From Elusimicrobiota bacterium (GTDB lineage: Bacteria; Elusimicrobiota; UBA8919): a DNA stretch of 64,000 nt. The DNA lies in the NCBI GenBank assembly GCA_028718185.1, contig JAQUMH010000001.1:405186-469185 (forward strand), read 5' to 3'. Shown here piece by piece: positions 36,877-50,064 of this stretch. The notes below the pieces were generated by a model. The model worked only from the letters and a program-made list of their open reading frames with translations, had not been told where the DNA came from and made no database searches. The translations under genes and the position numbers were made by a program. How positions within the stretch are numbered: position 1 is the stretch's first letter; each line of letters starts with the position of its first letter.

Positions 36877-37323
36877 TTAGGATTTAACAGGTTTCAATTT
36901 TAGCTCTTCGGGATTAACCTGTTCCCCACACTTTGGACAATGATATTTAACTTCAGTTTTGATAAGTTCTTTGTCATGGTGTGGACATTTACCAGGTTTT
37001 GCTTTTTGATAATCGCAATCTTTTTCTGGACAAGCATACGTCAATAACACCTGTTTCATTTCAAGATTCATACCGCATTTAGGACATTTTCCAGATTTTT
37101 CACTCTGCACTTCCGGATGCATAGGACAGACATAAACACTGGAATAGAAAGATTCTTTTGCTTCAATCTTTCTTTCTGATTCTTCTTTCTCTGGCTTTTT
37201 TCCATCTTTATGTTCACTGTGTTCGTCACCGTCACTGCCGTGACATGCCATAGCAAATACCGGAGAACTACCAAGCAAATAACCCAATAGCATTGTTACT
37301 ATAAACATATTAAATATTTTCAT
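36877..37323 (-). CDS. Periplasmic heavy-metal-binding domain protein, copy A
   Basis: A 148-aa protein with signal peptide (IFNMFIVTMLLGYLLGSSPVFAMA) and an acidic/His linker, then three Cys-rich zinc-ribbon-like units: VCPMHPEVQSEKSGKCPKCG (HMBD, as found on CusB and CopA), ACPEKDCDYQ with GKCPHH, and HCPKCGEQ. The first unit is the family often seen in copper/silver systems; the tandem of three in a free-standing protein suggests a periplasmic metal buffer or chaperone (inference). It lies 29 nt downstream of the YHS-cupredoxin gene. A close paralogue (copy B) is at 41018. Confidence 0.75.
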   Translation of the reverse strand: MKIFNMFIVTMLLGYLLGSSPVFAMACHGSDGDEHSEHKDGKKPEKEESERKIEAKESFYSSVYVCPMHPEVQSEKSGKCPKCGMNLEMKQVLLTYACPEKDCDYQKAKPGKCPHHDKELIKTEVKYHCPKCGEQVNPEELKLKPVKS

Positions 37324-37352
37324 TTTTTCTAAAACTCCTTATTTACGGATTT

Positions 37353-37913
37353 TTATTCTTCTACAATCAACTTTCCTTTCATTTTAGAATGTCCCATGCC
37401 ACAATATACCGAACATAAAATATCAAATTTTCCGCTTTTATCGGCAAAGAACTCTATTTTTTTGTATTCGCCTTTTTTTACATCTACCTTGATTCCATAA
37501 TTTTTTATATAAACTCCGTGAGGAACATCCCGAGAAGTAACTGTGAGTTTTACTATGTCACCCTTTTTGACAACAATTGGGTCCGGTGAAAAACCATATT
37601 GATACGCCTCTAAACTGATATCTTTAATTTTGGAAATGTATTTTTCCGGGTCACTTTTAAATTTTCCCAAGCAGTCTGGGCAACAAAAATAATATGTCTT
37701 ATTTTTATAAATGTATGAATTTTTCTCAGATGCCTTTTCATTCGGCATTACCGGACAAACACCTACATTCTTTTCTGGTGATTTCTTTGCTGATTTTTTC
37801 TCATGTTTATGTTGTTCTACACTTCCATCGTGCTGATGTATCTCTGCCATTATAATGTTACTGACTAAAAGATAACCTAATAACACAATAAAAACAATAC
37901 TATATTTCTTCAT
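37353..37913 (-). CDS. YHS-cupredoxin fusion, copy A
   Basis: A 186-aa exported protein (signal peptide 1-23, then a His/Lys-rich linker IHQHDGSVEQHKHEKK). Residues about 50-95 are a YHS/TRASH-like metal-binding domain (CPVMPNEK, TYYFCCPDCLGKFKSDPEKY). Residues about 100-186 are a cupredoxin with the full CuA ligand pattern of cytochrome oxidase subunit II: His132 (DVPHGV), then C-x3-C-x3-H-x2-M as CSVYCGMGHSKM (Cys167, Cys171, His175, Met178). No oxidase genes are present, so a copper carrier or redox role in metal resistance is inferred. A paralogue is at 41919. Confidence 0.82.
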   Translation of the reverse strand: MKKYSIVFIVLLGYLLVSNIIMAEIHQHDGSVEQHKHEKKSAKKSPEKNVGVCPVMPNEKASEKNSYIYKNKTYYFCCPDCLGKFKSDPEKYISKIKDISLEAYQYGFSPDPIVVKKGDIVKLTVTSRDVPHGVYIKNYGIKVDVKKGEYKKIEFFADKSGKFDILCSVYCGMGHSKMKGKLIVEE

Positions 37914-38055
37914 TTTCTAAACCTCCTTTTTCTACCATCCGAACAAGTCGCAGAGAGCCATAAAACTGTGTGCTATATTCCCGTTCTCCAATTTCACAGC
38001 AGCGGCAAAGTGAGAAGCTCCGAAACATCATCCCCACCCACAAGTTGTACCTTGA

Positions 38056-38460
38056 TTATACTGAAAGCCACCATATCAGGAAAATCCCAACAGCCCAATC
38101 ATAGAATGTGCAACTGACAATATACCATTCAGGTACCTTGGTTTTAACTATTCTTAATTTCTCATGGTGAATAGCATCCCATATGCCATGCCAGAAATAA
38201 CCTGCGATAAGAAAATATGGCGTTACTATTATACTGAGAAGTAGCAACGCGATATACATAACAACATTAGACACTTCAATAAAAACGTCTTTTTTGCTTG
38301 TGGAACCAGAAAAAGCAAATCCAAAATAAGCTCCGGCAATACCCATAAGCAGTATTGTAAAGAAATTCAATACATTTTGTTTTGGAAGCAAAAAAGCAAT
38401 TCCAACTGTTATCGGCACTGTAATTAGTGCAACAAGGAGACCAATATATTTTTCTTTCAT
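38056..38460 (-). CDS. Four-helix membrane protein, unknown
   Basis: A 134-aa integral membrane protein with four predicted helices (LLVALITVPITVGIAFLL; FFTILLMGIAGAYFGFAF; VMYIALLLLSIIVTPYFLI; CTFYDWAVGIFLIWWLSV). The segment FWHGIWDAIHHEKL, with two His and acidic residues between helices 3 and 4, could bind metal. No family recognised. It sits inside the metal-resistance locus between copA and the copy A genes; RBS GGAGAAAA. Confidence 0.6.
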   Translation of the reverse strand: MKEKYIGLLVALITVPITVGIAFLLPKQNVLNFFTILLMGIAGAYFGFAFSGSTSKKDVFIEVSNVVMYIALLLLSIIVTPYFLIAGYFWHGIWDAIHHEKLRIVKTKVPEWYIVSCTFYDWAVGIFLIWWLSV

Positions 38461-38649
38461 TTTATTTTCTCCACTAAATCATTCATTCATCCTGATTGAA
38501 TGTCGGGGTTATTATTTATTTTTTCATTGTTTTACCACGATATTCATACTTATACTTATTTCCCTTAGAACAACAACTATTCTGAATTGAACTTTTATAT
38601 TTTAAATCCCTTATTACTCATCTCCAATTCTTATCTTTAATTAAATAAA

Positions 38650-40272
38650 TTACATCTTCAATCTTCGCAGTCTAAGTGCATTACTAATTACGGATACCGA
38701 ACTAAAACTCATAGCGAGTCCTGCAATCATGGGGTTAAGAAGTAACCCAAAAAAAGGATATAAAATTCCTGCAGCAATAGGTATCCCGAGTGTATTATAA
38801 ACAAAAGCAAAAAAAAGATTTTGCCTAATATTCTTCATTACTGCCTTGCTTAAACGAATTGCTTTTACTATTCCTCTTAGATCGCCTTTAACTAATGTTA
38901 TGCCTGCACTTTCAATAGCTACATCGGTTCCTGTACCCATAGCAATGCCAACTTCTGCTTCCGCTAATGCAGGTGCATCATTTATACCGTCACCTGCTAC
39001 CATAACAATAGTGCCTTCTTCTTTAAACTTTTTAACAATTTCTTGTTTATCTTTGGGCTTCAATTCAGCCCTTATATCATCAATATCTAATTCTTTGGCA
39101 ATTGCTTCAGCAGTTTTATGATTATCACCTGTAAGCATAATAATTTTCAACCCCATATTGTGCAATTCAGATATAGCACTCTGCGTAGTTTCTTTTATAG
39201 GGTCAGAGATGCCAAGAATACCTATTACCTTTTTTTCAACTGCCACCCAAACAACAGTCTGAGCTTTTTGATAAAGCACGGAAGCCTTGCTTAGCAACTC
39301 ATCTGAAGGTCTAATATCAAAACTTTCTATAAACTTCTGATTCCCAAGTAATGATGCTTTTCCATTATATGTTCCCTTAATACCGCCTCCTGTTACTGAC
39401 TGAAAATCACTAACAGGTTTAAAATTCACATTTTTTTCTTTAGCATAATCAATAATAGCTTTGGCTAATGGATGCTCACTACTCTGTTCAAGTGAAGCCG
39501 ATATATTTATTAATGATTTTTCTTCTCCATAATTTGCACTTATACAGGACGTTACTTGCGGTTTCCCTGCTGTCAAAGTCCCTGTCTTATCAACAAGAAT
39601 ATGCGTAATTTTTCCTGTTTTTTCTATTGCTTCGGCATTCTTAATCAAAATACCAACTTGTGCCCCCTTTCCAACACCAACCATCACTGACATTGGCGTA
39701 GCCAGTCCAAGCGCACACGGACATGCTATAATTAAAACAGAAATTGCACTTACTAATGCATATGCCAAAGAAGGCTCTGGTCCCCAAATATACCAGGCAA
39801 TAAAAGCGCCAACAGCGCATACAACAACCGCAGGAACAAAATAACCGGAAACCTGATCTGCAAGTTTTTGTACAGGAGCGCGACTACGTTGAGCTTCAGC
39901 CACCATATGAACAATCTGTGAAAGCAACGTTTCGGAACCCACCCTCTCAGTTCGCATGGTAAAACTGCCTGTTTGATTAACAGTAGCACCAATAACACGA
40001 TCGCCAACGTTCTTAACTACCGGTATGGGTTCTCCTGAAATCATTGATTCATCAACAGTGCTTTTGCCATCAACAATAACACCATCGATTGGTATTTTTT
40101 CACCAGGTTTTACACGCAAGATATCGCCTTTTTGAATCTTATCTATAACAACACTCTCTTCTTTGCCATTTATAATACGATGAGCATCCTTAGCAGCAAG
40201 ACCAAGCAATGATTTAATAGCATAACCTGTTCTTCTTCGGGCTTTTGCTTCTAATAATTGGCCTAAAATCAC
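38650..40272 (-). CDS. copA: Cu(I) P-type ATPase, C-terminal part
   Basis: 540 residues that form the bulk of a P1B-1 copper ATPase: actuator domain (MISGEPIPV), transmembrane CPC motif ([12 protein letters not shown]), phosphorylation site DKTGTLT, nucleotide-domain SEHPLAKAI, hinge [13 protein letters not shown], and the Cu(I) site residues YN (FAFVYNTLG) and M-x-x-S-S ([16 protein letters not shown]). It stays in the same frame as the preceding 212-codon part and is separated from it only by a TAG at 40288-40290 and five further codons. On its own it could start at GTG 40272 but would lack the first helices. Confidence 0.9.
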
Positions 40273-40287
40273 TAATACAGTGATTAC

Positions 40288-40926
40288 CTATGCTGCTTCA
40301 AAATAAAGACTTATCGCTCCTTTGTCTTTGAGTGATTCCGGAAATATGCCGGGAAACACAACTGCTATAGCACTAAATCCATATGCAGTACCTACCCCCA
40401 TTGCTATAAGAGTGAACATGTTTGGGCTTTTATTTAAAATAGAATACCACGCCCTTGTGAAAAACATTCCACCTGCCCAAAAAATAACAGGTGTTGATAT
40501 TATTAACTGAGCCCATCGCGAAATAGAAGAAGATAACAGTGCCGAAAAATTAAAACCGGGGAACATGTCTCCTAATGCCAAAATAAAAACAGGGACTGTC
40601 AAAAATAATCCAAGCCAGAATTTTATGGATAAAGAACGTTCCTCATTATTGTTTTCTGAGTCAATAATATCTCTCAACTCAAGGGACATTCCGCATTTTG
40701 GGCAATTCCCTGGTTTGTTCTGTTTGATCTCGGGATGCATAGGACAGGTGTAAATAGTATTTTGCCGGTTTGGATCCAGGTCAGCAGGTTGGTCGAATTT
40801 TTTTTCATTTTCAATAAATTTATTTTTGCAATACTCACTACAGAAAAAATAGGTTTTACCGTATTCTTCTAATTTTATTGCTTTTTGTTCATCTACTTCC
40901 ATTCCGCACACTAAATCTTTTACCAT
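40288..40926 (-). CDS. copA: Cu(I) P-type ATPase, N-terminal part (ends at in-frame TAG)
   Basis: 212 residues that form the front of the ATPase: a YHS domain (DLVCGMEVDEQK, TYFFCSEYCKNKF), an HMBD (YTCPMHPEIKQNKPGNCPKC), then the first transmembrane helices. It ends at YFEAA; in CopA proteins this block continues directly as a helix (V-I-x-x-L-V-x-L-G-Q), which is what follows the TAG here ([10 protein letters not shown]). So one codon interrupts an otherwise intact gene. The ATG at 40926 is preferred (AGGG upstream) to GTG 40935. A YHS plus HMBD front end is typical of copper ATPases in anaerobes. Confidence 0.88.
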   Translation of the reverse strand: MVKDLVCGMEVDEQKAIKLEEYGKTYFFCSEYCKNKFIENEKKFDQPADLDPNRQNTIYTCPMHPEIKQNKPGNCPKCGMSLELRDIIDSENNNEERSLSIKFWLGLFLTVPVFILALGDMFPGFNFSALLSSSISRWAQLIISTPVIFWAGGMFFTRAWYSILNKSPNMFTLIAMGVGTAYGFSAIAVVFPGIFPESLKDKGAISLYFEAA

Positions 40927-41017
40927 TTTTAACACCCTACAAATTATCGCAAATCTAACACAAATATTCGTGAATAATTCGCGTTACTTTAGTATGTATT
41001 AGCGTTTTTTATTACAA

Positions 41018-41461
41018 CTATTTCACAGGTTTTAGTTTCAAATCTTCGGGATTGACCTGTTCACCACACTTTGGACAATGATACTTAACTTCAGTTTTGA
41101 TAAGTTCTTTATCATGGTGAGGACATTTACCCGGTTTTGCTTTTTGATAATCACAATCTTTTTCCGGACAAGCATACGTCAACAACAATTGTTTCTTCTC
41201 AAGGTTCATACCGCATTTCGGACATTTTCCGGATTTTTCACTTTGGACTTCCGGATGCATCGGACATACGTAAATCGATGAATAAAATCGTTCTTTAGTT
41301 TCAATTGGTTTCGTTGATTCTTTTTTCTCTAATATTTTTCCATCTGTATGTTGGCTGTGTTCATCCTCTCCACCTTCATGACACGACATAGCAAAAATAG
41401 GAGAACTGCTTAGCAAATAACCTAATAATACTGTACCTATAAAAACATTGATTTTACGCAT
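41018..41461 (-). CDS. Periplasmic heavy-metal-binding domain protein, copy B
   Basis: A 147-aa paralogue of the protein at 36877, nearly identical over its last 90 residues, which carry the same three Cys-rich units; signal peptide and linker (GGEDEHSQHTDGK) differ more. RBS GGAGGGA. A palindrome overlaps its upstream region (41482-41503). It precedes copA by about 90 nt and was probably produced by duplication of a cupredoxin/HMBD pair. Confidence 0.75.
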   Translation of the reverse strand: MRKINVFIGTVLLGYLLSSSPIFAMSCHEGGEDEHSQHTDGKILEKKESTKPIETKERFYSSIYVCPMHPEVQSEKSGKCPKCGMNLEKKQLLLTYACPEKDCDYQKAKPGKCPHHDKELIKTEVKYHCPKCGEQVNPEDLKLKPVK

Positions 41462-41481
41462 AATTTCATCCCTCCTGCTTT

Positions 41482-41503
41482 ATCTGTTTTTATAATAACA
41501 GAT
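41482..41503. promoter_or_regulatory. Palindrome ATCTGTT-N8-AACAGAT
   Basis: A perfect 7-bp inverted repeat with an 8-bp spacer that contains AT-rich -10-like sequence, about 20 nt upstream of the copy B metal-binding gene. Symmetry and position suit an operator. The rest of 41504-41690 shows an imperfect inverted repeat (GATTGATAT/ATATCAGTC, about 41617-41655) and no gene. Confidence 0.45.
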
Positions 41504-41690
41504 TTTAAAATATTTTTCTTGTAAAGATAACTACACATGCTAACTAAAACCATTAACACCTGTTATTTTAACTAAACATTATTTAAGTTATACCACACAT
41601 TAGACTATGGTCGGCGATTGATATCCTGATAAACATATTGGCATATCAGTCTAAATATTATTCTATTAATTACAATATAATTAATAATTT

Positions 41691-41903
41691 TCAAGAAGCT
41701 ACTTTATGATGTTCGGACATAAATTTCTTCATCTCATCATCATTACAAAAATATAATGTTTTACCATCATAATCCATCTTTACCATTGCTGATGCTTTCA
41801 TCTCCATTCCATCTGATGCACACTTAGCCATTTCTTCTGATGGTTTTTTAGCACAAGCAGAAAAAACAAAAATAAAAAGAATAAACACATAATATTTAAC
41901 CAT
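41691..41903 (-). CDS. Small YHS-like lipoprotein
   Basis: A 70-aa lipoprotein: signal peptide with lipobox FSAC (Cys17), then a compact YHS-like metal-binding segment (AKCASDGMEMKASAMVKMDY, TLYFCNDDEMKKFMSEHHK) rich in Met, Cys and His. RBS GGGGAGG. It lies 15 nt downstream of the copy B YHS-cupredoxin gene. Presumed to sit on the outer or inner membrane and bind copper (inference). Confidence 0.7.
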   Translation of the reverse strand: MVKYYVFILFIFVFSACAKKPSEEMAKCASDGMEMKASAMVKMDYDGKTLYFCNDDEMKKFMSEHHKVAS

Positions 41904-41918
41904 ATTTTACCTCCCCTC

Positions 41919-42482
41919 TTATTCTTCTACAATCAGTTTACTCTTCATCTTAGAATGTCCTTCACCACAATATACTGAGCATATAATATCAAATTTTCCG
42001 CTTTTATCGGCAAAAAACTCTATTTTTTTGTATTCGCCTTTTTTTACAACTACCTTGATTCCATAATTTTTTATACAAACTCCATGAGGAACATCCCGGG
42101 ATGTAACTGTAAGTTTTACTATGTCACCCTTTTTGACAACAATTATGTCCGGTGAAAAACCATATTGATATGCCTCTAAATTAATATCTTTAATTTTCGA
42201 AATGTATTTTTCCGGGTCACTTTTAAATTTCCCCAAGCAGTCCGGGCAACAAAAATAATATGTCTTATTCTTATAAATGTATGAATTTTTCTCAGATGCT
42301 TTTTCATTCGGCATTACCGGACAAACACCTACATTCTTTTCTGGTGATTTCTTTGCTGATTTTTTCTCCTGTTTATTTTTTTGTTCTCCACTTCCTTCGT
42401 GATGATGCATCTCTGCAATCACACGATTACTGGTTAAAAAACAACTCAACAAAATAATAACGATAATACCAAATTTCTTCAT
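41919..42482 (-). CDS. YHS-cupredoxin fusion, copy B
   Basis: A 187-aa paralogue of the protein at 37353. Signal peptide, His-rich linker (EMHHHEGSGEQKNKQEKK), YHS domain and cupredoxin with the CuA-type ligands (DVPHGV; CSVYCGEGHSKM). The two copies agree at almost all positions after residue 40, so the duplication is recent or under gene conversion. RBS AGGAG. It is 128 nt downstream of cusA. Confidence 0.82.
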   Translation of the reverse strand: MKKFGIIVIILLSCFLTSNRVIAEMHHHEGSGEQKNKQEKKSAKKSPEKNVGVCPVMPNEKASEKNSYIYKNKTYYFCCPDCLGKFKSDPEKYISKIKDINLEAYQYGFSPDIIVVKKGDIVKLTVTSRDVPHGVCIKNYGIKVVVKKGEYKKIEFFADKSGKFDIICSVYCGEGHSKMKSKLIVEE

Positions 42483-42506
42483 TTTTTCTCCTTTAGCAGA
42501 TATTTA

Positions 42507-42560
42507 CCCCAAACATGTAAACTGCTTGGGGTTTGCCGACCAAAGTCGGCAACTACTGTT
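42507..42560. repeat. Hairpins between cusA and the copy B cupredoxin gene
   Basis: ACCCCAA/TTGGGGT with a 13-nt loop (42506-42532) followed directly by the AAG-family hairpin GCCGAC-CAAA-GTCGGC with tail AACTAC (42535-42556), copy 3. The pair could attenuate or process the transcript between cusA and the downstream genes. Confidence 0.55.
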
Positions 42561-42609
42561 ATGATACTGTTCCCTGTCAGTGAAGTATAGTTTATTATTA
42601 TTTGAATTA

Positions 42610-45600
42610 TTAAGTTGTAAGTTTTGAAATATCAACTGTGCCTTTTTTCATTTCGAAATTCCATTTCCAGATTTCATAAATTACAGGGTATATTAAAAGT
42701 TCCATAATGAAACTCGTAAAAGTGCCGCCTACCATAGGTGCCGCTATTCTTTTCATCAGGTCAGCGCCGGTTCCCGCTGACCACATTATCGGGATCAATC
42801 CTATAAATATCGCGCTAACAGTCATCATTTTAGGTCTTATCCTTTTCACCGCCCCATGTATAATTGCTTCTTTTAAATCAGATAGTGTTTTCATTTTGCC
42901 CTTTTTAACTGCATCACTGTAAGACAAATCAAGGAACAAAAGCATAAACACACCTGTTTCAGCGTCAAGCCCCATCAAAGCAATCATTCCGACCCAGACA
43001 CCTATAGAAACGTTATAACCAAGTAAATACATAAACCATACTGCTCCGACCAAAGAGAAAGGAACTGCAAGAAGAACCGTCAAAGTTTTCACTACTGATT
43101 TTGTATTCATGTATAGTAAAAGAAAAATTATGAAAATTGTTACCGGAATGATTACTTTAAGCCGTTCTCTTACTCTCATCATATTTTCATATTGTCCGCT
43201 CCATAAAAGCGAATAACCGGTTGGCAGTGTCAATTTTTCTTTAACAATTTTTTTTGCTTCACTAACATAACTCCCTACATCTCTTCCAGCCACATCAACA
43301 TAAACATAGCCGGTAAGAAGTCCATTTTCATTTCTTATCATTGAAGGTCCTAATGAAAGATGAATGTCCGCAAGCTCACCCAACGGAATTTGTGCGCCTG
43401 ACATTGTCGGGACCAGCACCCTTCTCAGTTTTGGTAAAGTATCTCTTAATTCACGGGCATACCTGACATTTATTGTATATCTTTCACGACCTTCAATTGT
43501 TGTTGTAATAGGTTCCCCGCCGATTGCAGACATAATAACCATCTCTGCTTCTTTTATACTCAGTCCATACCGTGCAAGTTGTTCTCTTTTTAAATCAAAG
43601 TCTACAAAATAACCGCCTGCAACCCTTTCAGCATAAATACTTCTTGTTCCTTTAGTATCTTTTAAAATCACTTCTATGTTAGTCCCGATTTTTTCTATTT
43701 CCTTTAAGTCACCACCGGAGATTTTTATTCCAACCGGAGTTCTAACACCCGTAGTCAACATATCAATTCTCGCCTTAATCGGCATTGTCCATGCATTTGA
43801 GACACCGGGGAATTGCATTTTTGAGTCCATCTCATTTATTATATCTTCCCATGTAATTCTATCCCGCCAGACAAGTCTGAATGGTTCCTTAAAAATTTCC
43901 GGCATCCATGAGTACCACCTTTTAACTTCACGCCACTCTTTTTCCGGTTTCAGTATAACTGTAGTCTCCATCATTGAAAACGGTGCCGGGTCAGTGGATG
44001 TATCAGCCCTGCCTGCTTTTCCAAACACTCTTTCTACTTCCGGAACGCTTTTTAGTACTTGGTCCATAGTCTGAAGTAATTTTTGGGCTTCTGTTACGGA
44101 AATACCGGGAAGAGTTGTCGGCATGTATAAAATAGAACCCTCATTTAAGGGCGGCATAAACTCCGAACCTAATTTAAAATAAACAGGTATCGTTGAGATA
44201 ATTAAAATAATTGCGGTAATAATTACTGTCTTTTTATATTTCAGCACAAGGTTACATACCGGCTCATATATCTTAAAAAGAATTTTACTTATCGGGTGGT
44301 TCTCTTCTTTATAATATTTCCCTACAGTAATCGTATTATATAGTGAAGATAGCCATCTTGGTTTGAAATGTGAATAATCCATTTTTACGAAAAGAAGCCG
44401 TATGGCAGGGTCTAATGTAACCGCTAAGACAGCTGCAAAAGCCATTGCTAAATTCTTACTAAATGCTAATGGCCTGAAAAGTCGGCCTTCCTGGTCGACA
44501 AGAGTAAAAACAGGCATAAAAGCAACAGCAATAACCAGGAGAGAGAAAAATATGGAAGGAGCAACTTCCTGTAATGCTTGTATGCGGATTTCGTGAAAAT
44601 CTCCTTTTTTTCCGCCTTCTATCCACATCTCAAGTTTTTTGTATGCATTTTCAACTTCAACAATAGCACCGTCACATAATACTCCTATTGAAATAGCTAT
44701 TCCGGATAAAGACATAATATTTGCAGTAAGTCCCATAAGATACATCGGTATAAATGCCAGTACTACGGATAGAGGAATGGTTATTATCGGCACTATCGCG
44801 GACGGAAAATGCCATAAGAAAAAAAGAATTATCAAACAAACAACAATCAATTCTTCTTTAAGCTGGTGTATTAATGTAGATATTGCTTTAAGTATAAGCT
44901 CTGAACGGTCATATGTAGTTACAATTTCTGCTCCTTTCGGGAGAGACGGTTCTATTTCTTTTATTTTTGCTTTTACACGGTTTATAACATTTAATGCATT
45001 TTCCCCCTGTCTCATTATAACAATTCCGCCTACTGTATCTCCTTCTCCGTCTAAATCTGCAATACCTCTTTTGATTTCAGGACCGAGTTCTACTTTTGCA
45101 ATATTTTTTATCAATACCGGAGTACCGCTCATATCTTTTCCGACAACAATATTTTCAATGTCTATTTTTGATTTAACATAACCCCTTCCGCGAACCATGT
45201 ACTCGGCACCGGAAAACTCCACTAATCTTCCGCCTACATCATCATTGCCGTCTCTGATTGCTTCAATCACTTTCATTAAAGGAATATTATATGATACGAG
45301 TGCATTTGGATTTATACTTACCTGATATTGTTTTTGAAATCCGCCGATTGATGCAACTTCCGCCACTCCCGGAACTGATTGAATATAGTATCGGAGATAC
45401 CAATCCTGATAACTTCTTAAGTCCGCTAAACTATTGTTTCCCGTTTTATCTACAAGGGCATATTGATATACCCAGCCGACACCGGTTGCATCAGGACCTA
45501 ATTCTGTTTTAACGCCTTCTGGAAGACGCGGGAGTATTTTACTTAAATACTCCAGTGTCCTGCTTCTCGCCCAATATATATCAGTTCCATCCTGGAAAAT

Positions 45601-45945
45601 TACATATACATATGAGAAACCAAAATCTGAAAATCCTCTAATCGCTTTAATTTTAGGTGCACCTAACATTGCAGTAACAATCGGATAAGTAACCTGGTCT
45701 TCTATAACATCGGGGCTTCTATCCCAGCGAGAATATATTATAACCTGGGTATCGGATAAATCCGGTATAGCATCTAAAGGGATATTTTTTATGCAATAAA
45801 TAGCTACTGCAACAGCAACAGCAGTAAAAATTATAACCAAAAACTTGTTCTTTGCAGAAAACCCAACGATTTTCTCAAGAAACCCTAAATTATGCCGACC
45901 AAGGTCGGCAACTACATTATTATCTTTTAAATTTTTATCGTCCAT
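42610..45945 (-). CDS. cusA: Heavy-metal RND efflux pump, CusA/CzcA family
   Basis: An 1111-aa inner-membrane RND pump (HME type) that would export Cu+/Ag+ or divalent metals with CusB and TolC. Twelve helices with two large periplasmic loops: IPLDAIPDLSDTQVIIYSRW after helix 1, GIAISIGVLCDGAIVEVENA in helix 4 with the proton-relay Asp/Glu, GSEFMPPLNEGSILYMPTTL after helix 7. Typical length is 1040-1050; the extra length includes an N-terminal extension. Its first 20 residues (NVVADLGRHNLG) are encoded by an AAG-loop hairpin repeat. The ATG at 45945 has AGGAG 8 nt upstream. Metal specificity cannot be read from the sequence; copper is inferred from neighbours. Confidence 0.93.
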   Translation of the reverse strand: MDDKNLKDNNVVADLGRHNLGFLEKIVGFSAKNKFLVIIFTAVAVAVAIYCIKNIPLDAIPDLSDTQVIIYSRWDRSPDVIEDQVTYPIVTAMLGAPKIKAIRGFSDFGFSYVYVIFQDGTDIYWARSRTLEYLSKILPRLPEGVKTELGPDATGVGWVYQYALVDKTGNNSLADLRSYQDWYLRYYIQSVPGVAEVASIGGFQKQYQVSINPNALVSYNIPLMKVIEAIRDGNDDVGGRLVEFSGAEYMVRGRGYVKSKIDIENIVVGKDMSGTPVLIKNIAKVELGPEIKRGIADLDGEGDTVGGIVIMRQGENALNVINRVKAKIKEIEPSLPKGAEIVTTYDRSELILKAISTLIHQLKEELIVVCLIILFFLWHFPSAIVPIITIPLSVVLAFIPMYLMGLTANIMSLSGIAISIGVLCDGAIVEVENAYKKLEMWIEGGKKGDFHEIRIQALQEVAPSIFFSLLVIAVAFMPVFTLVDQEGRLFRPLAFSKNLAMAFAAVLAVTLDPAIRLLFVKMDYSHFKPRWLSSLYNTITVGKYYKEENHPISKILFKIYEPVCNLVLKYKKTVIITAIILIISTIPVYFKLGSEFMPPLNEGSILYMPTTLPGISVTEAQKLLQTMDQVLKSVPEVERVFGKAGRADTSTDPAPFSMMETTVILKPEKEWREVKRWYSWMPEIFKEPFRLVWRDRITWEDIINEMDSKMQFPGVSNAWTMPIKARIDMLTTGVRTPVGIKISGGDLKEIEKIGTNIEVILKDTKGTRSIYAERVAGGYFVDFDLKREQLARYGLSIKEAEMVIMSAIGGEPITTTIEGRERYTINVRYARELRDTLPKLRRVLVPTMSGAQIPLGELADIHLSLGPSMIRNENGLLTGYVYVDVAGRDVGSYVSEAKKIVKEKLTLPTGYSLLWSGQYENMMRVRERLKVIIPVTIFIIFLLLYMNTKSVVKTLTVLLAVPFSLVGAVWFMYLLGYNVSIGVWVGMIALMGLDAETGVFMLLFLDLSYSDAVKKGKMKTLSDLKEAIIHGAVKRIRPKMMTVSAIFIGLIPIMWSAGTGADLMKRIAAPMVGGTFTSFIMELLIYPVIYEIWKWNFEMKKGTVDISKLTT
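45893..45915. repeat. AAG-family hairpin inside cusA, copy 4
   Basis: TGCCGACC-AA-GGTCGGCA followed by ACTACA. It is translated as NVVADLGRH near the cusA N-terminus. Confidence 0.75.
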
Positions 45946-45991
45946 GTTTAATTCTCCTGACGTTGTTTGCTTAGCTCTGCTCACATATTTG

Positions 45992-46018
45992 GCACGCCAA
46001 GGGCGTGCAACTACAATT
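45992..46018. repeat. AAG-loop hairpin between cusB and cusA, copy 5
   Basis: GCACGCC-AAG-GGCGTGC followed by AACTACAATT, in the 107-bp gap between cusB and the cusA start. It is 77 bp from copy 4. Confidence 0.75.
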
Positions 46019-46052
46019 GTGTTTCGTTCATCCCCCCATCAAACGCCGTAGT

Positions 46053-47315
46053 CTATTTTTCTATCGCTGATTTTAAGCTTGACTCTGAATCAATTAAAAA
46101 GTTTGCTGAAGTTACAACTTCTTCTCCAACTGAAAGTCCTGAAATAATTTCGTAATATCCTTCTGCACTATGTCCGACTTTAATCTCCCTGGGCTCATAA
46201 ACTCCCTGCCTATCGGCAGGCAGGCCTGCCCCTTTTTTTACAAAAACAACCTGTCTTGTCCCTGTATCAATGACTGCTTCTTCCGGAACAGCAATCTTTT
46301 CGCCGAAATCAACATGAATAACAGCATCCACATACATATCAGGTTTAAGTAATCCTTCAGGATTAGACACTTCCGCCCTTGCCCGTAATGTCCTGGATTC
46401 ACTCTCTAAATACGTATCAACTGCCTTTATCACCCCGGAAAATGTCTTTCCGGGTAAAGCTACGGATGTGACATCCATAATTTGTCCCGGTTTAACCAAA
46501 TCAACTTCAGACATATAAATCTGAGCATATATCCAGACAGTTCCGCCAGGCTTCCCTACTAAAATAAGATTAGTAAATGTTTCAGAACTCTTTGATAATT
46601 CCGTAATCTGGTCATCGGATAACCCCAAGTGTTTTAGTTTTAGTGCTGAGGAATCTAAAAGTGAGTCTGCCTGTTGAATCCCTATTTGGGATTCCTGCTC
46701 GTTTTCATTAGTATTTAAGGCATTTTCAGCAACAAGTTCCTTCCGCCTATCAAGTGTCTGTTTGTATTCAACAATAGCATTGTAAAGTTCAGGGTCATGA
46801 GCTACTCTGCCTGAAGCACGGATATCAAAAATAATTTTCCGTTTTTTTACTATTCCGGTTTTTACACCTATTAGCTGCTGTTTTTCTTCCGATATTGTAA
46901 CCTTAGACAGACCTTCTACTTTGGATGTCCCTGCCGGACTATTTTCATCAACTTCATATGGCACCATTTCCATACCCATAGAATCCTTGCCCGGTTTGCC
47001 GGAAATTTCGCCTGGATTCATTGAAGAGCGGTACATGATTTTCTTTTTCATAGGTTGAGGAACGGATTTTTCTTTCATCGGCACCAATTTCATTCCGCAA
47101 ATAGGACAATTACCGGGCTTATCTGATATATAAGTAGGATGCATAGGACACTGATATTTTTGGGATATTTGCTTGTTAACTCCCTGACTTGATATTTCTT
47201 TTTTTGAACAAGAAACGAAAAAAACAGGAAGCAGTATGTAATAAACAAATAACAGAAGCAAACACTTCCACAACCACTTCCCACTTCCCACTTCCCACTT
47301 TCTGTTAATTATCAT
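46053..47315 (-). CDS. cusB: CusB-like periplasmic adaptor with HMBD domains
   Basis: A 420-aa membrane-fusion protein linking CusA to TolC. It is a predicted lipoprotein (lipobox VSC after a long hydrophobic stretch). Two HMBD-like segments follow (YQCPMHPTYISDKPGNCPIC; a degraded RSSMNPGEISGKPGKDSMG), then barrel-sandwich and alpha-hairpin regions (TGIVKKRKIIFDIRASGRV, VWIYAQIYMSEVDLVKPGQ). The ATG at 47315 has GGAGG 6 nt upstream. Two repeats lie in frame: the heptamer array codes KWEVGSGKW at the N-terminus, and a palindrome codes GAGLPADRQG (46205-46230) in a C-terminal loop. Confidence 0.9.
   Translation of the reverse strand: MIINRKWEVGSGKWLWKCLLLLFVYYILLPVFFVSCSKKEISSQGVNKQISQKYQCPMHPTYISDKPGNCPICGMKLVPMKEKSVPQPMKKKIMYRSSMNPGEISGKPGKDSMGMEMVPYEVDENSPAGTSKVEGLSKVTISEEKQQLIGVKTGIVKKRKIIFDIRASGRVAHDPELYNAIVEYKQTLDRRKELVAENALNTNENEQESQIGIQQADSLLDSSALKLKHLGLSDDQITELSKSSETFTNLILVGKPGGTVWIYAQIYMSEVDLVKPGQIMDVTSVALPGKTFSGVIKAVDTYLESESRTLRARAEVSNPEGLLKPDMYVDAVIHVDFGEKIAVPEEAVIDTGTRQVVFVKKGAGLPADRQGVYEPREIKVGHSAEGYYEIISGLSVGEEVVTSANFLIDSESSLKSAIEK
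46205..46230. repeat. CCTGCC palindrome inside cusB
   Basis: CCTGCC-TATC-GGCAGG plus CAGGCCTGCC, in frame, coding LPADRQ. A related palindrome is part of the element at 30113. Confidence 0.7.
47274..47303. repeat. Heptamer repeat in the cusB signal region
   Basis: Four tandem CCCACTT units (GGAAGTG on the coding strand) at codons 5-14 of cusB. Confidence 0.8.
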
Positions 47316-47316
47316 T

Positions 47317-48600
47317 TTAATCCTCCAATTTAGAACCAATAATTTTCTCAAGGACAGCAAGATTCTGATAATATTCCGCAATATATTTGTAATATTCAAG
47401 CCGGAAATCCAACAAAGTCCGGACACTATCAAGCAAATTCAAAAAATCATCCTTGTCTGAACGATAGGAAGACTCGGTTATTCTTAATAATTGCTCAGCT
47501 TGAGGTAATACACTGGAACGATAAAGTTCTATCAACCGTTCAGCGGTTTTTAATTTTACATAAAAATCTTTTGCCTGATATACAGTCATTAGTTCCGTAC
47601 CTTTCTTTTCCGAATCTGCCATTTTCAATTCATCTGACATCTCTTTAACACCGAGTGCAGGCTTCCAAAACCATAACGGTACCGTAAATCCAACCATAAA
47701 ATCCTGATTTTTTTCTCCGGTCATCATCTTTCTGTTACGATACGTTAAGTCAAAGTCAGGTAAGAACTCAGCCATTGACATTTTCTTTGCCCACTTGCTT
47801 TTTGAAACTGATGCATTTTGCTGTTTGATTTCGATATTATTTTCAATTACTAATTTTTTTATTTCATCCCAGCTGTTTTTTACCTGCGGACTTGGCATCA
47901 AATCTTCGGGTTCGCCTAACTCACTGCTTACATCTTTACCTATGATAGAATTTATTTCTGCTTTAATAGTTTCTTTTTCCTTTTCCATTGTTATAATCAT
48001 GTTAAACATTTTAGATGTCTCAACCTGCGCTCGCAAAACATCACCCTGAGTCGCTTTACCGACAACGTATTTTGATTCGGCAACCTTACTGAAACCGTCC
48101 ATAATTTTAGCAGTTTGTTTGTATGTTTCAATTGATTTGCTAACATAAAAATACATTGCATAGCTTATTTTCAATTCCGACAAAACCTTTAATTCAGTTC
48201 CTTTATATTCCCATTCACTTTTTTCTGCTTCATATTTTGCAATTTTTCCTTTTATTGAAAGTTTACCGGGAAAAGGAACCATTTGGGTTACCCCGACCAT
48301 TTTTTCTTCTGCATCGTTTATGTTAAAATTATTTTTAGGCATTCTTTCCCAATCAAAAAATAACTGCGGATTTTCATAACTTCTATCCTGCCAGATTCTT
48401 GATTTAGATGCGTTCCAACTTTCCTTTGCAGCAATAATTTCAGGATTATTCTGTCTTGCTTCATTCACTAGAGAATCTAATGTTATAACATTTTGAGGTT
48501 CTGAAAATAGAACAATAAAAAAACCGTGGGATAGCAATCCCACCGCTACAAAAAATCTAATAAATGAACCTGTTATTATTCGCATTTTCCGCAAAAACAT
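47317..48600 (-). CDS. TolC-family outer-membrane efflux protein
   Basis: A 427-aa outer-membrane channel of the TolC/CusC/CzcC type, third part of the pump. A hydrophobic signal (FIRFFVAVGLLSHGFFIVLF) precedes two long alpha-helical repeats (SLVNEARQNNPEIIAAKESW, VKLKTAERLIELYRSSVLPQ) and the YRSDKDDFLNLLDSVRTL block. The start at 48600 lies inside the end of the CnrX-like gene with GGGGGA upstream; ATG 48585 is an alternative. It overlaps its upstream neighbour and is 1 nt from cusB, so the three pump genes are tightly coupled. Confidence 0.88.
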   Translation of the reverse strand: MFLRKMRIITGSFIRFFVAVGLLSHGFFIVLFSEPQNVITLDSLVNEARQNNPEIIAAKESWNASKSRIWQDRSYENPQLFFDWERMPKNNFNINDAEEKMVGVTQMVPFPGKLSIKGKIAKYEAEKSEWEYKGTELKVLSELKISYAMYFYVSKSIETYKQTAKIMDGFSKVAESKYVVGKATQGDVLRAQVETSKMFNMIITMEKEKETIKAEINSIIGKDVSSELGEPEDLMPSPQVKNSWDEIKKLVIENNIEIKQQNASVSKSKWAKKMSMAEFLPDFDLTYRNRKMMTGEKNQDFMVGFTVPLWFWKPALGVKEMSDELKMADSEKKGTELMTVYQAKDFYVKLKTAERLIELYRSSVLPQAEQLLRITESSYRSDKDDFLNLLDSVRTLLDFRLEYYKYIAEYYQNLAVLEKIIGSKLED

Positions 48601-49037
48601 TTTTCATCCCCCATTCTCTTACATTTGCTGCATAATTCTTCACTAACAACTGAAAAAAATATTTTTTGCTGGTCGGGATCTAATATTTTTTTTATATTCA
48701 ACATATATTGAACAGTCACTCTCTGTTGTTTAGATTGATTTACATTTATTCTATTAAGACAATTTAAAATTGTTTTATTATTTAAATCCTTAGAAGTTTG
48801 AATAAGTATATTTAGTTGTTCTCGCTCTCCTTGTAATTCGTTACAAAGTAATTTTATATCCGCATTATATTGCATTTCCAACAGATTGAATTCTTTAAGT
48901 TGTTCTTGAGAAAGATTTAGTTTTTTTGTCAATGATTGAATTTCTGTAGCATGGCAAACTTTTCTTGCAATATAAAGACCTGCAGTAAAAACCACTGCTA
49001 TTATGATGATAGATAAAATCACTTTTCCTATTTTCAT
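48576..49037 (-). CDS. CnrX/Spy-like periplasmic metal sensor
   Basis: A 153-aa membrane-anchored protein (helix about 6-25), then a Spy/CpxP/CnrX-like four-helix hairpin (LNLSQEQLKEFNLLEMQYNA; LLCNELQGEREQLNILIQ; a C-terminal LDPDQQKIFFSVVSEEL). It ends in a Cys cluster (CSKCKRMGDEKCFCGKCE) that could bind soft metals, unlike the His/Glu site of CnrX. It overlaps the anti-sigma candidate (ATGA) and lies directly before the pump genes. The order sigma, anti-sigma, sensor matches the cnrYXH idea, though in a different order. Confidence 0.75.
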   Translation of the reverse strand: MKIGKVILSIIIIAVVFTAGLYIARKVCHATEIQSLTKKLNLSQEQLKEFNLLEMQYNADIKLLCNELQGEREQLNILIQTSKDLNNKTILNCLNRINVNQSKQQRVTVQYMLNIKKILDPDQQKIFFSVVSEELCSKCKRMGDEKCFCGKCE

Positions 49038-49312
49038 TGTTTAATCCCCTTAAAAATAAAATCACTAAATGAATCTATACCTTTTATCGAAAATATTTTT
49101 GTTTGTTCGTCCGATGGATGGTATAGTTTCCCCTTCGCTGTAAAAACACCGATAATTAAGCCAATGATAAAAATTGACGGAACGAACTTCAATAATGCAT
49201 AATAAGAAAATCTTTTCTCTCTTTTATCAACCGCTTTCCAGAAATTTCTTCTGAAATTTTCTGATGGTTCAATTTCTTTGATATTTTTAAGTAAAACATC
49301 TATTCTATCCAT
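49034..49312 (-). CDS. Small membrane anti-sigma factor candidate
   Basis: A 92-aa protein with one transmembrane helix (about 43-60; FVPSIFIIGLIIGVFTA), a charged cytoplasmic N-terminus of about 38 residues (LLKNIKEIEPSENFRRNFWK) and a short periplasmic tail. Size, topology and position between an ECF sigma factor and a CnrX-like sensor fit CnrY-type anti-sigma factors. No sequence motif proves it. GGAGGTGTAAC precedes the ATG. Separated from the sigma gene by a repeat element. Confidence 0.65.
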   Translation of the reverse strand: MDRIDVLLKNIKEIEPSENFRRNFWKAVDKREKRFSYYALLKFVPSIFIIGLIIGVFTAKGKLYHPSDEQTKIFSIKGIDSFSDFIFKGIKQ

Positions 49313-49369
49313 GTTACACCTCCACTAATATAAACACTTGAACCCTGAAAAACTTGCGGGCAATAAGTT

Positions 49370-49456
49370 AGATTGCTTCGTTGCCCCGCTAAACGGGGTT
49401 CCTCGCAATGACTATACTCCCTTTGTCATTGCGAACCAAAGGTGAAGCAATCTCAT
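49370..49456. repeat. ATTGCGAG element, inverted pair of half-elements
   Basis: AGATTGCTTCG...CTCGCAATGAC (49370-49412) followed after 12 nt by GTCATTGCG...GAAGCAATCTCAT (49425-49456), so two halves point outward. The first half also has a CCCCG/CGGGG hairpin. It occupies the sigma/anti-sigma gap (49313-49524), which holds no gene. Confidence 0.7.
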
Positions 49457-49524
49457 AAATTTTAGAATTATTATATAACGGTTTGATTATACAAATAATT
49501 GATTAAAATAAGGTTAAATTAAAA

Positions 49525-50064
49525 TTAGAGGTTTTTAATCTTTTTACGAAGGTTGCTCTTTGCTCTGAAAATGAGGGATTCCACAGAAGGTATGCTTTTT
49601 TGAAGTATTTCAGATATTTCCTGGTATGACTTATTCTCATAAAAAGAAAGTATAACCGCAGATTTTTGTAAAGATGGTAATTGAGAAAGTGCAATTCTTA
49701 CTTTTTTTGTAGTTTCTTCTTCTTCAAGTATTTGCTGCGAGTCCTTTTGTTTTAAATCAGGGAACTGTACAGGAAAATCGTCTTCTTCGGTATGCTGTAG
49801 CCAGTCCAGTGAAAAAAATTTAATAATTTTCCTTCTTCTTTGTAAATTTAAAGCAAAGTTTGTAGCTATTCTGTAAAGGTAAGTGGAAAATTTTGCAGTG
49901 GGTTCATATTTATCAATTGCTTGATAAACTCTTAGGAATGTTTCTTGTGCTGCATCTTCAGCATCCTGGCGGGAACCAAGAAATTTATAAAGGTAGTTAA
50001 TTAATGGTTTTTCATATTTATTAAGAACATCATTAAATACAAATTTATCATCTCTTTTATTCAT
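49525..50064 (-). CDS. ECF RNA polymerase sigma factor
   Basis: A 179-aa sigma-70 family ECF factor. Region 2: FLGSRQDAEDAAQETFLRVY and FSTYLYRIATNFALNLQRRR (about 29-77). Region 4: LSQLPSLQKSAVILSFYENK and SYQEISEILQKSIPSVESLI (about 127-166). The first gene upstream of the anti-sigma, sensor and Cus pump genes, so it probably drives the locus in response to metal. It begins only 20 nt after an amidohydrolase gene; there is no room for its own long promoter, hence read-through from upstream or an internal promoter. Confidence 0.92.
   Translation of the reverse strand: MNKRDDKFVFNDVLNKYEKPLINYLYKFLGSRQDAEDAAQETFLRVYQAIDKYEPTAKFSTYLYRIATNFALNLQRRRKIIKFFSLDWLQHTEEDDFPVQFPDLKQKDSQQILEEEETTKKVRIALSQLPSLQKSAVILSFYENKSYQEISEILQKSIPSVESLIFRAKSNLRKKIKNL

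Follow-up and report, generated by a model that had tools for sequence, protein, structure and literature searches.

Two copies of a secreted protein in a copper-resistance locus combine a metal-binding YHS domain with a cupredoxin that has the complete ligand set of the CuA centre. The protein, here called YHS-CuA, probably chaperones and buffers Cu(I)/Ag(I) in the periplasm for the efflux pump CusCBA, taking the role of CusF or CupA with respiratory-type ligands. Because it adjoins a Cu/Ag efflux pump in a genome without a detectable CuA respiratory enzyme, its most likely function is to carry or buffer copper that is to be exported. Canonical CuA is best known from two respiratory enzymes, in which it is an electron carrier; in our assessment, a site of known type appears here in an architecture and a setting that are both new, encoded by a bacterium that is probably an anaerobe.

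Two YHS-CuA proteins with a complete ligand set

Both reading frames are present at the coordinates originally given, but on the minus strand of the window (the whole stretch of DNA analysed, 64,000 nucleotides), which the original prediction left unsaid; the plus strand there is rich in stops. Their products share 87% identity:

41919–42482, minus strand: YHS-CuA copy 1, 187 aa; signal peptide (about residues 1–23), His/Lys-rich linker (about 24–49), YHS domain (about 50–95) and CuA-type cupredoxin (about 96–187)
37353–37913, minus strand: YHS-CuA copy 2, 186 aa; domains and ligands as in copy 1

We take YHS-CuA to be a secreted, putatively periplasmic protein. The YHS family (Pfam PF04945) matches the two copies with E-values of 2e-8 and 1.9e-8 (34.5 and 34.6 bits, against a gathering score of 30.3), and the Pfam families Cupredoxin_1 (1.6e-8 in copy 1, 3.5e-10 in copy 2) and COX2 (3.5e-8 and 9e-10, respectively) match above their curated cut-offs. 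The C-x3-C-x3-H-x2-M motif reads CSVYCGEGHSKM in copy 1 and CSVYCGMGHSKM in copy 2, and the upstream His ligand lies within SRDVPHGV; in copy 1 the ligands are H133, C168, V170 (through its backbone oxygen), C172, H176 and M179. The Pfam matches, the motif and the upstream His together bear out the original prediction that each copy consists of a YHS domain followed by a cupredoxin with the full CuA set. The motif is confined to two of the 244 open stretches of at least 60 aa in the window, namely the two YHS-CuA frames, and a chance origin is ruled out by the expectation of 0.015 from composition-shuffled ORFs. The first cupredoxin strand keeps its aromatic residues (AYQYGF, against AFAFGY in Thermus). 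The copies differ at an additional Cys close to the His ligand in copy 1 (HGVC), where copy 2 has Tyr, and at the inner residue of the ligand loop, which is Glu in copy 1 (CGEGH) and Met in copy 2 (CGMGH).

The best NCBIfam matches of YHS-CuA are L-NosZ, nitrosocyanin, NosZ and CoxB, all far under their equivalog cut-offs: 49.5 and 56.9 bits against 147.7 for CoxB, 63.7 against 700 for L-NosZ and 48.7 against 625 for NosZ. The domain is therefore CuA-like and outside any named CuA enzyme. An identity as NosZ or L-NosZ was rejected on these scores and on the length of 187 aa with no propeller domain, and one as cytochrome c oxidase subunit II on the CoxB score and the lack of a detectable COX1 (PF00115) in the four carrier genomes. 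Among solved structures, nitrosocyanin and Thermus ba3 CuA match best (E about 1e-11). CusF_Ec (PF11604) is absent from the Pfam matches of the YHS-CuA proteins.

Predicted geometry of the ligand site

The AF2 model of the mature protein has a mean pLDDT of 74.6, pulled down by its disordered first 38 residues. Aligned with the CuA domain of Thermus ba3 (2cua_A; VIA-align), it matches 94 of 94 residues without a gap at 1.2 Å (Z 14.8), and CuA domains are its best matches. A constant offset of +4 places H110, C145, C149, H153 and M156 of the model, which correspond to H133, C168, C172, H176 and M179 of the full-length protein, on H114, C149, C153, H157 and M160 of 2cua, the crystal ligands of Thermus CuA. 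The model is metal-free, and its confidence in the ligand loop is moderate (pLDDT about 75–83). Structure prediction had been suggested as a check on ligand geometry, and in this metal-free model all five ligands superpose on those of the crystal; because they do, the case that would count against a CuA site, ligands that cannot meet, does not arise at the level of the model. The predicted structure is thus a cupredoxin fold with its ligands arranged as in known CuA.

Relatives and selection

Searching 341 genomes at a strict limit recovered the fusion in three further genomes of the same phylum, two of the same family (G006 and G007) and one of another (G336), in which an HMBD (heavy-metal-binding) domain is fused N-terminally to give HMBD-YHS-CuA. 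The survey of domain architectures that had been suggested thus finds the fusion recurring in this phylum. The five proteins of the four genomes all keep the five CuA ligands and the four YHS cysteines, and their alignment has no indel from the YHS CC motif to the Met ligand. Between copies 1 and 2, dN and dS are 0 and 0.21 in the YHS domain, 0.05 and 0.35 in the CuA domain, and 0.20 and 0.22 in the N-terminal 49 residues. The low dN relative to dS in the YHS and CuA domains indicates purifying selection that maintains both metal domains in both copies; the linker drifts.

No relatives were found in viral contigs or in phages. Relatives from genome contigs comprised COX2 proteins, YHS-only proteins and a standalone cupredoxin of Bacillales, the fusion not being among them, and G318 was rejected as a carrier on a match that is YHS-only. 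A sample of 395 genomes from one other phylum yielded two standalone CuA lipoproteins, both in genomes that have COX1; 398 genomes sampled from a second other phylum gave zero matches, a result uninformative on its own, given the strict E-value limit and a group without a positive control. In a tree of CuA domains, the YHS-CuA proteins cluster together with weak support (76/87) and the deeper branches lack resolution; the nearest protein by path is that of Ilyobacter.

A copper-resistance locus around a Cus-type pump

Together with the two YHS-CuA genes, the following features make up a locus spanning 36877–50064, given here in order of transcription; copy 1 lies between the CusA-type pump and the small lipoprotein, and copy 2 between the DUF6010-like protein and the last HMBD protein:

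49525–50064, minus strand: ECF sigma factor, first gene of the locus (Sigma70_r2, 1.8e-19), with the same pairing in G006 and G007
49034–49312, minus strand: probable 92-aa anti-sigma factor, without a Pfam match and named by position and by similarity to the genes that follow the ECF sigma factor in G006 and G007
48576–49037, minus strand: CpxP/Spy-like periplasmic metal-resistance protein with a Cys-rich tail (Metal_resist, 1.7e-4, below the cut-off)
47317–48600, minus strand: CusC-type outer-membrane efflux protein (OEP, 1.7e-43)
46053–47432, minus strand: CusB-type adaptor with an N-terminal HMBD (Pfam and NCBIfam domain matches)
42610–45984, minus strand: CusA-type RND pump for copper/silver, 1124 aa (E. 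coli CusA, 3k07, matched by phmmer at E about 0)
41691–41903, minus strand: small putative lipoprotein of 70 aa, immediately after copy 1 and with part of a YHS-like domain (YHS, 9e-5, below the cut-off)
41018–41461, minus strand: secreted Cys-rich HMBD protein, partner of copy 1 (HMBD, 1.8e-16)
38650–40935, minus strand: CopA-type P1B ATPase (YHS, HMBD and pump, by domain matches) with an in-frame TAG at codon 216
38056–38460, minus strand: DUF6010-like small membrane protein, between copA and copy 2 (7e-6, just below the cut-off)
36877–37323, minus strand: secreted HMBD protein, partner of copy 2 (HMBD, 2.3e-16)

The pump scores 1012 bits to E. coli CusA (3k07) and 476 bits to ZneA, which marks it as the Cu/Ag type, and it retains three Met at what we take to be the positions of the E. 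coli CusA metal site. The methionine triad of CusA has been described (PMC7558416). The HMBD protein at 41018–41461 has homologues near YHS-CuA in G006 and G007, its domain being part of YHS-CuA itself in G336. The pair of YHS-CuA and HMBD genes is duplicated (36877–37913 and 41018–42482, minus strand), with one pair on each side of copA.

Pump genes of the cus type occur in all four YHS-CuA loci (the window, G006, G007 and G336). G006 and G007 share the order ECF sigma, YHS-CuA, anti-sigma, small membrane protein, HMBD protein, cusC, cusB, followed in G007 by a full-length cusA ORF; the G006 stretch ends before a complete cusA. In G336 the order is cusC, HMBD-YHS-CuA, cusB, cusA, so that the fusion occupies the slot between cusC and cusB that cusF holds in the E. 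coli order cusC-cusF-cusB-cusA. In the window, G006 and G007, YHS-CuA lies near cusCBA, outside the cusC–cusB interval.

Several further features of this DNA deserve mention. The CopA-type gene is divided by its single in-frame TAG, both halves sharing one frame; as TAG terminates 11 other genes here, recoding is unlikely, and the TAG would fit a recent nonsense mutation or an error in the assembly. A Cys-rich tail, CDEYCKVxCGxC...C, closes the probable anti-sigma factors of G006 (L023:13078–13548) and G007 (L024:10940–11350); a comparable tail in the window is carried by the CpxP/Spy-like protein and not by the probable anti-sigma factor. These tails possibly sense metal in the periplasm. At 1361–2203 on the minus strand, the window also encodes a methyltransferase (Pfam methyltransferase matches) with a Cys-rich N-terminus (CCSSECSCCG), which presumably resembles arsenite methyltransferase (ArsM).

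Respiratory and Cus partners

COX1 (PF00115) had no match in the window's genome, G006, G007 or G336. In the window's genome, which is 96.7% complete, there was likewise none to the cytochrome c assembly protein family, SCO1/SenC or CusF (CusF_Ec, PF11604; searched for in this genome only). These absences are subject to the draft state of the genomes and the sensitivity of the family models; each family search was positive in control genomes. The only CuA/COX2 matches in the window's genome are the two YHS-CuA proteins. That no oxidase or N2O reductase is nearby, as originally noted, is thus true of the window and also of the genome as tested.

A carrier of copper for export

If YHS-CuA is a chaperone and buffer for CusCBA, the YHS thiolates C54, C78, C79 and C82 would capture or exchange metal, and the CuA-type site (H133, C168, C172, H176 and M179) would bind one or two copper ions, probably reduced, and would pass copper on to CusB/CusA. 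We infer the copper occupancy, nuclearity and redox state of the site, the direction and partner of transfer, and docking on CusB. The proposal has precedents. In E. coli, CusF does the periplasmic chaperone job, and CusCBA is most important there under anoxia (PMC7558416). The copper chaperone CupA has a cupredoxin fold, and its binuclear copper cluster is essential for copper resistance, which shows that such a fold with a site for several coppers can serve this purpose (PMC7558416); the cupredoxin CopI functions in copper tolerance when oxygen is low (PMC13308877). PmoD indicates that a CuA site is possible outside the two classical enzymes (PMC6189053), and in at least one enzyme the YHS domain is copper-responsive (PMC4626032).

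Other roles have to be weighed against this one. We consider it unlikely that YHS-CuA is a soluble electron carrier, in which a mixed-valence purple site would shuttle electrons between periplasmic partners. Its full ligand set, the CuA fold of the model, the first-strand aromatics preserved as in Thermus and the standalone CuA lipoproteins of two genomes that have COX1 all speak for such a carrier, but COX1 went undetected in all four carrier genomes and cytochrome c assembly protein and SCO1 in the window's genome, the locus is without a redox enzyme, both YHS and HMBD are modules that bind metal, and the adjacent genes serve efflux. The leading claim of the original prediction, a CuA electron-transfer centre, is accordingly the part that is not supported. 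What stood of its picture of a CuA-like site in a metal-resistance locus is the fusion, the full ligand set, the locus, the probable anaerobe and a genome in which no CuA enzyme was found. Its alternative, a site that stores or passes copper, fits better, given cus pump genes in four of four loci and, in one of these, the gene in the cusF slot.

Storage without delivery is a doubtful account. Here the YHS domain, the His-rich linker and the CuA site would form a passive periplasmic sponge that reduces free copper and hands none to the pump, as might be read from the two copies, their His-rich linkers, the Cys-rich HMBD partners and the description of CopI as a modular copper buffer (PMC13308877). 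Yet a constant linker and a precise, fully conserved five-ligand site exceed the needs of a sponge, and the cusF-slot position in G336 suggests delivery. Very unlikely, in our estimate, is a periplasmic copper sensor whose copper binding alters contact with the anti-sigma factor and turns the locus on. The YHS-CuA gene does sit between the genes for the ECF sigma factor and the probable anti-sigma factor with its Cys-rich tail in G006 and G007, and the YHS domain of a mycobacterial adenylyl cyclase is a probable copper sensor (PMC4626032); against this, the sigma and anti-sigma genes of the window are several kilobases away from both copies, a sigma factor was not noted next to the gene in G336, and two near-identical copies would be unusual for a sensor.

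The chaperone and buffer for CusCBA therefore remains our preferred reading. Points against it are the moderate confidence of the metal-free model in the ligand loop, the position of the gene outside the cusC–cusB interval in the window, G006 and G007, and the fact that complete CuA ligand sets in characterised proteins belong, as far as is known, to electron-transfer centres. More tentatively, we suggest that YHS-CuA might hold a real binuclear CuA-type centre that serves copper export, the YHS and CuA domains forming a relay that keeps or makes Cu(I) before CusCBA is loaded, in bacteria that have no respiratory use for CuA. That complete CuA ligand sets turn up in the copper pump locus of a probable anaerobe, joined to YHS and in one case at the place of cusF, points to a copper-handling role for CuA-type sites as well. 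YHS-CuA offers a small soluble protein for a direct test of such a role, and is a candidate for the missing periplasmic chaperone in Cus systems that have no CusF.

Comparison with known systems

The CuA domains of Thermus ba3 subunit II (2cua), COX2 and NosZ share with YHS-CuA the cupredoxin fold and five side-chain ligands at identical spacing; YHS-CuA differs from these domains (about 26–39% identity) in being soluble and secreted, with a YHS domain in front and no detected oxidase or N2O reductase partner. CopI of Rubrivivax is also a periplasmic cupredoxin, with a His-rich N-terminal region and a role in copper tolerance at low oxygen, but it is a green cupredoxin not described as CuA and is not known to have a YHS domain. 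CusF of E. coli cusCFBA is likewise a small secreted protein of a cusCBA locus, and its gene slot is the one used in G336, but its fold is unrelated, an OB-like barrel of five strands whose ligands are His, two Met and Trp (PMC7558416). The S. pneumoniae CupA and CopA metal-binding domain (4f2e, 4f2f) match the model in cupredoxin fold (Z 12.9–13.1; 4f2e, 12.9). CupA shares a multi-copper site and a copper-resistance role with YHS-CuA, but is membrane-anchored, has no YHS domain, partners CopA in cytoplasmic copper export and uses bis-thiolate and Met-rich sites (PMC7558416). PmoD resembles YHS-CuA as a CuA site outside oxidases and N2O reductase that is linked to copper handling, and differs in building CuA across a homodimer with an unusual ligand set (PMC6189053).

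In the open-access papers searched we found no paper combining a cupredoxin with a YHS domain, which is no proof of absence, and none combining a YHS domain with copper resistance and a periplasmic setting. A standalone CuA cupredoxin with the CuA ligand set and 46% identity is encoded on plasmid pILYOP02 of Ilyobacter polytropus, a fermentative anaerobe; it differs from YHS-CuA in being a putative lipoprotein with no YHS domain. On this conjugative plasmid the gene (L022:9890–10282) adjoins two multicopper oxidases and periplasmic heavy-metal sensors.
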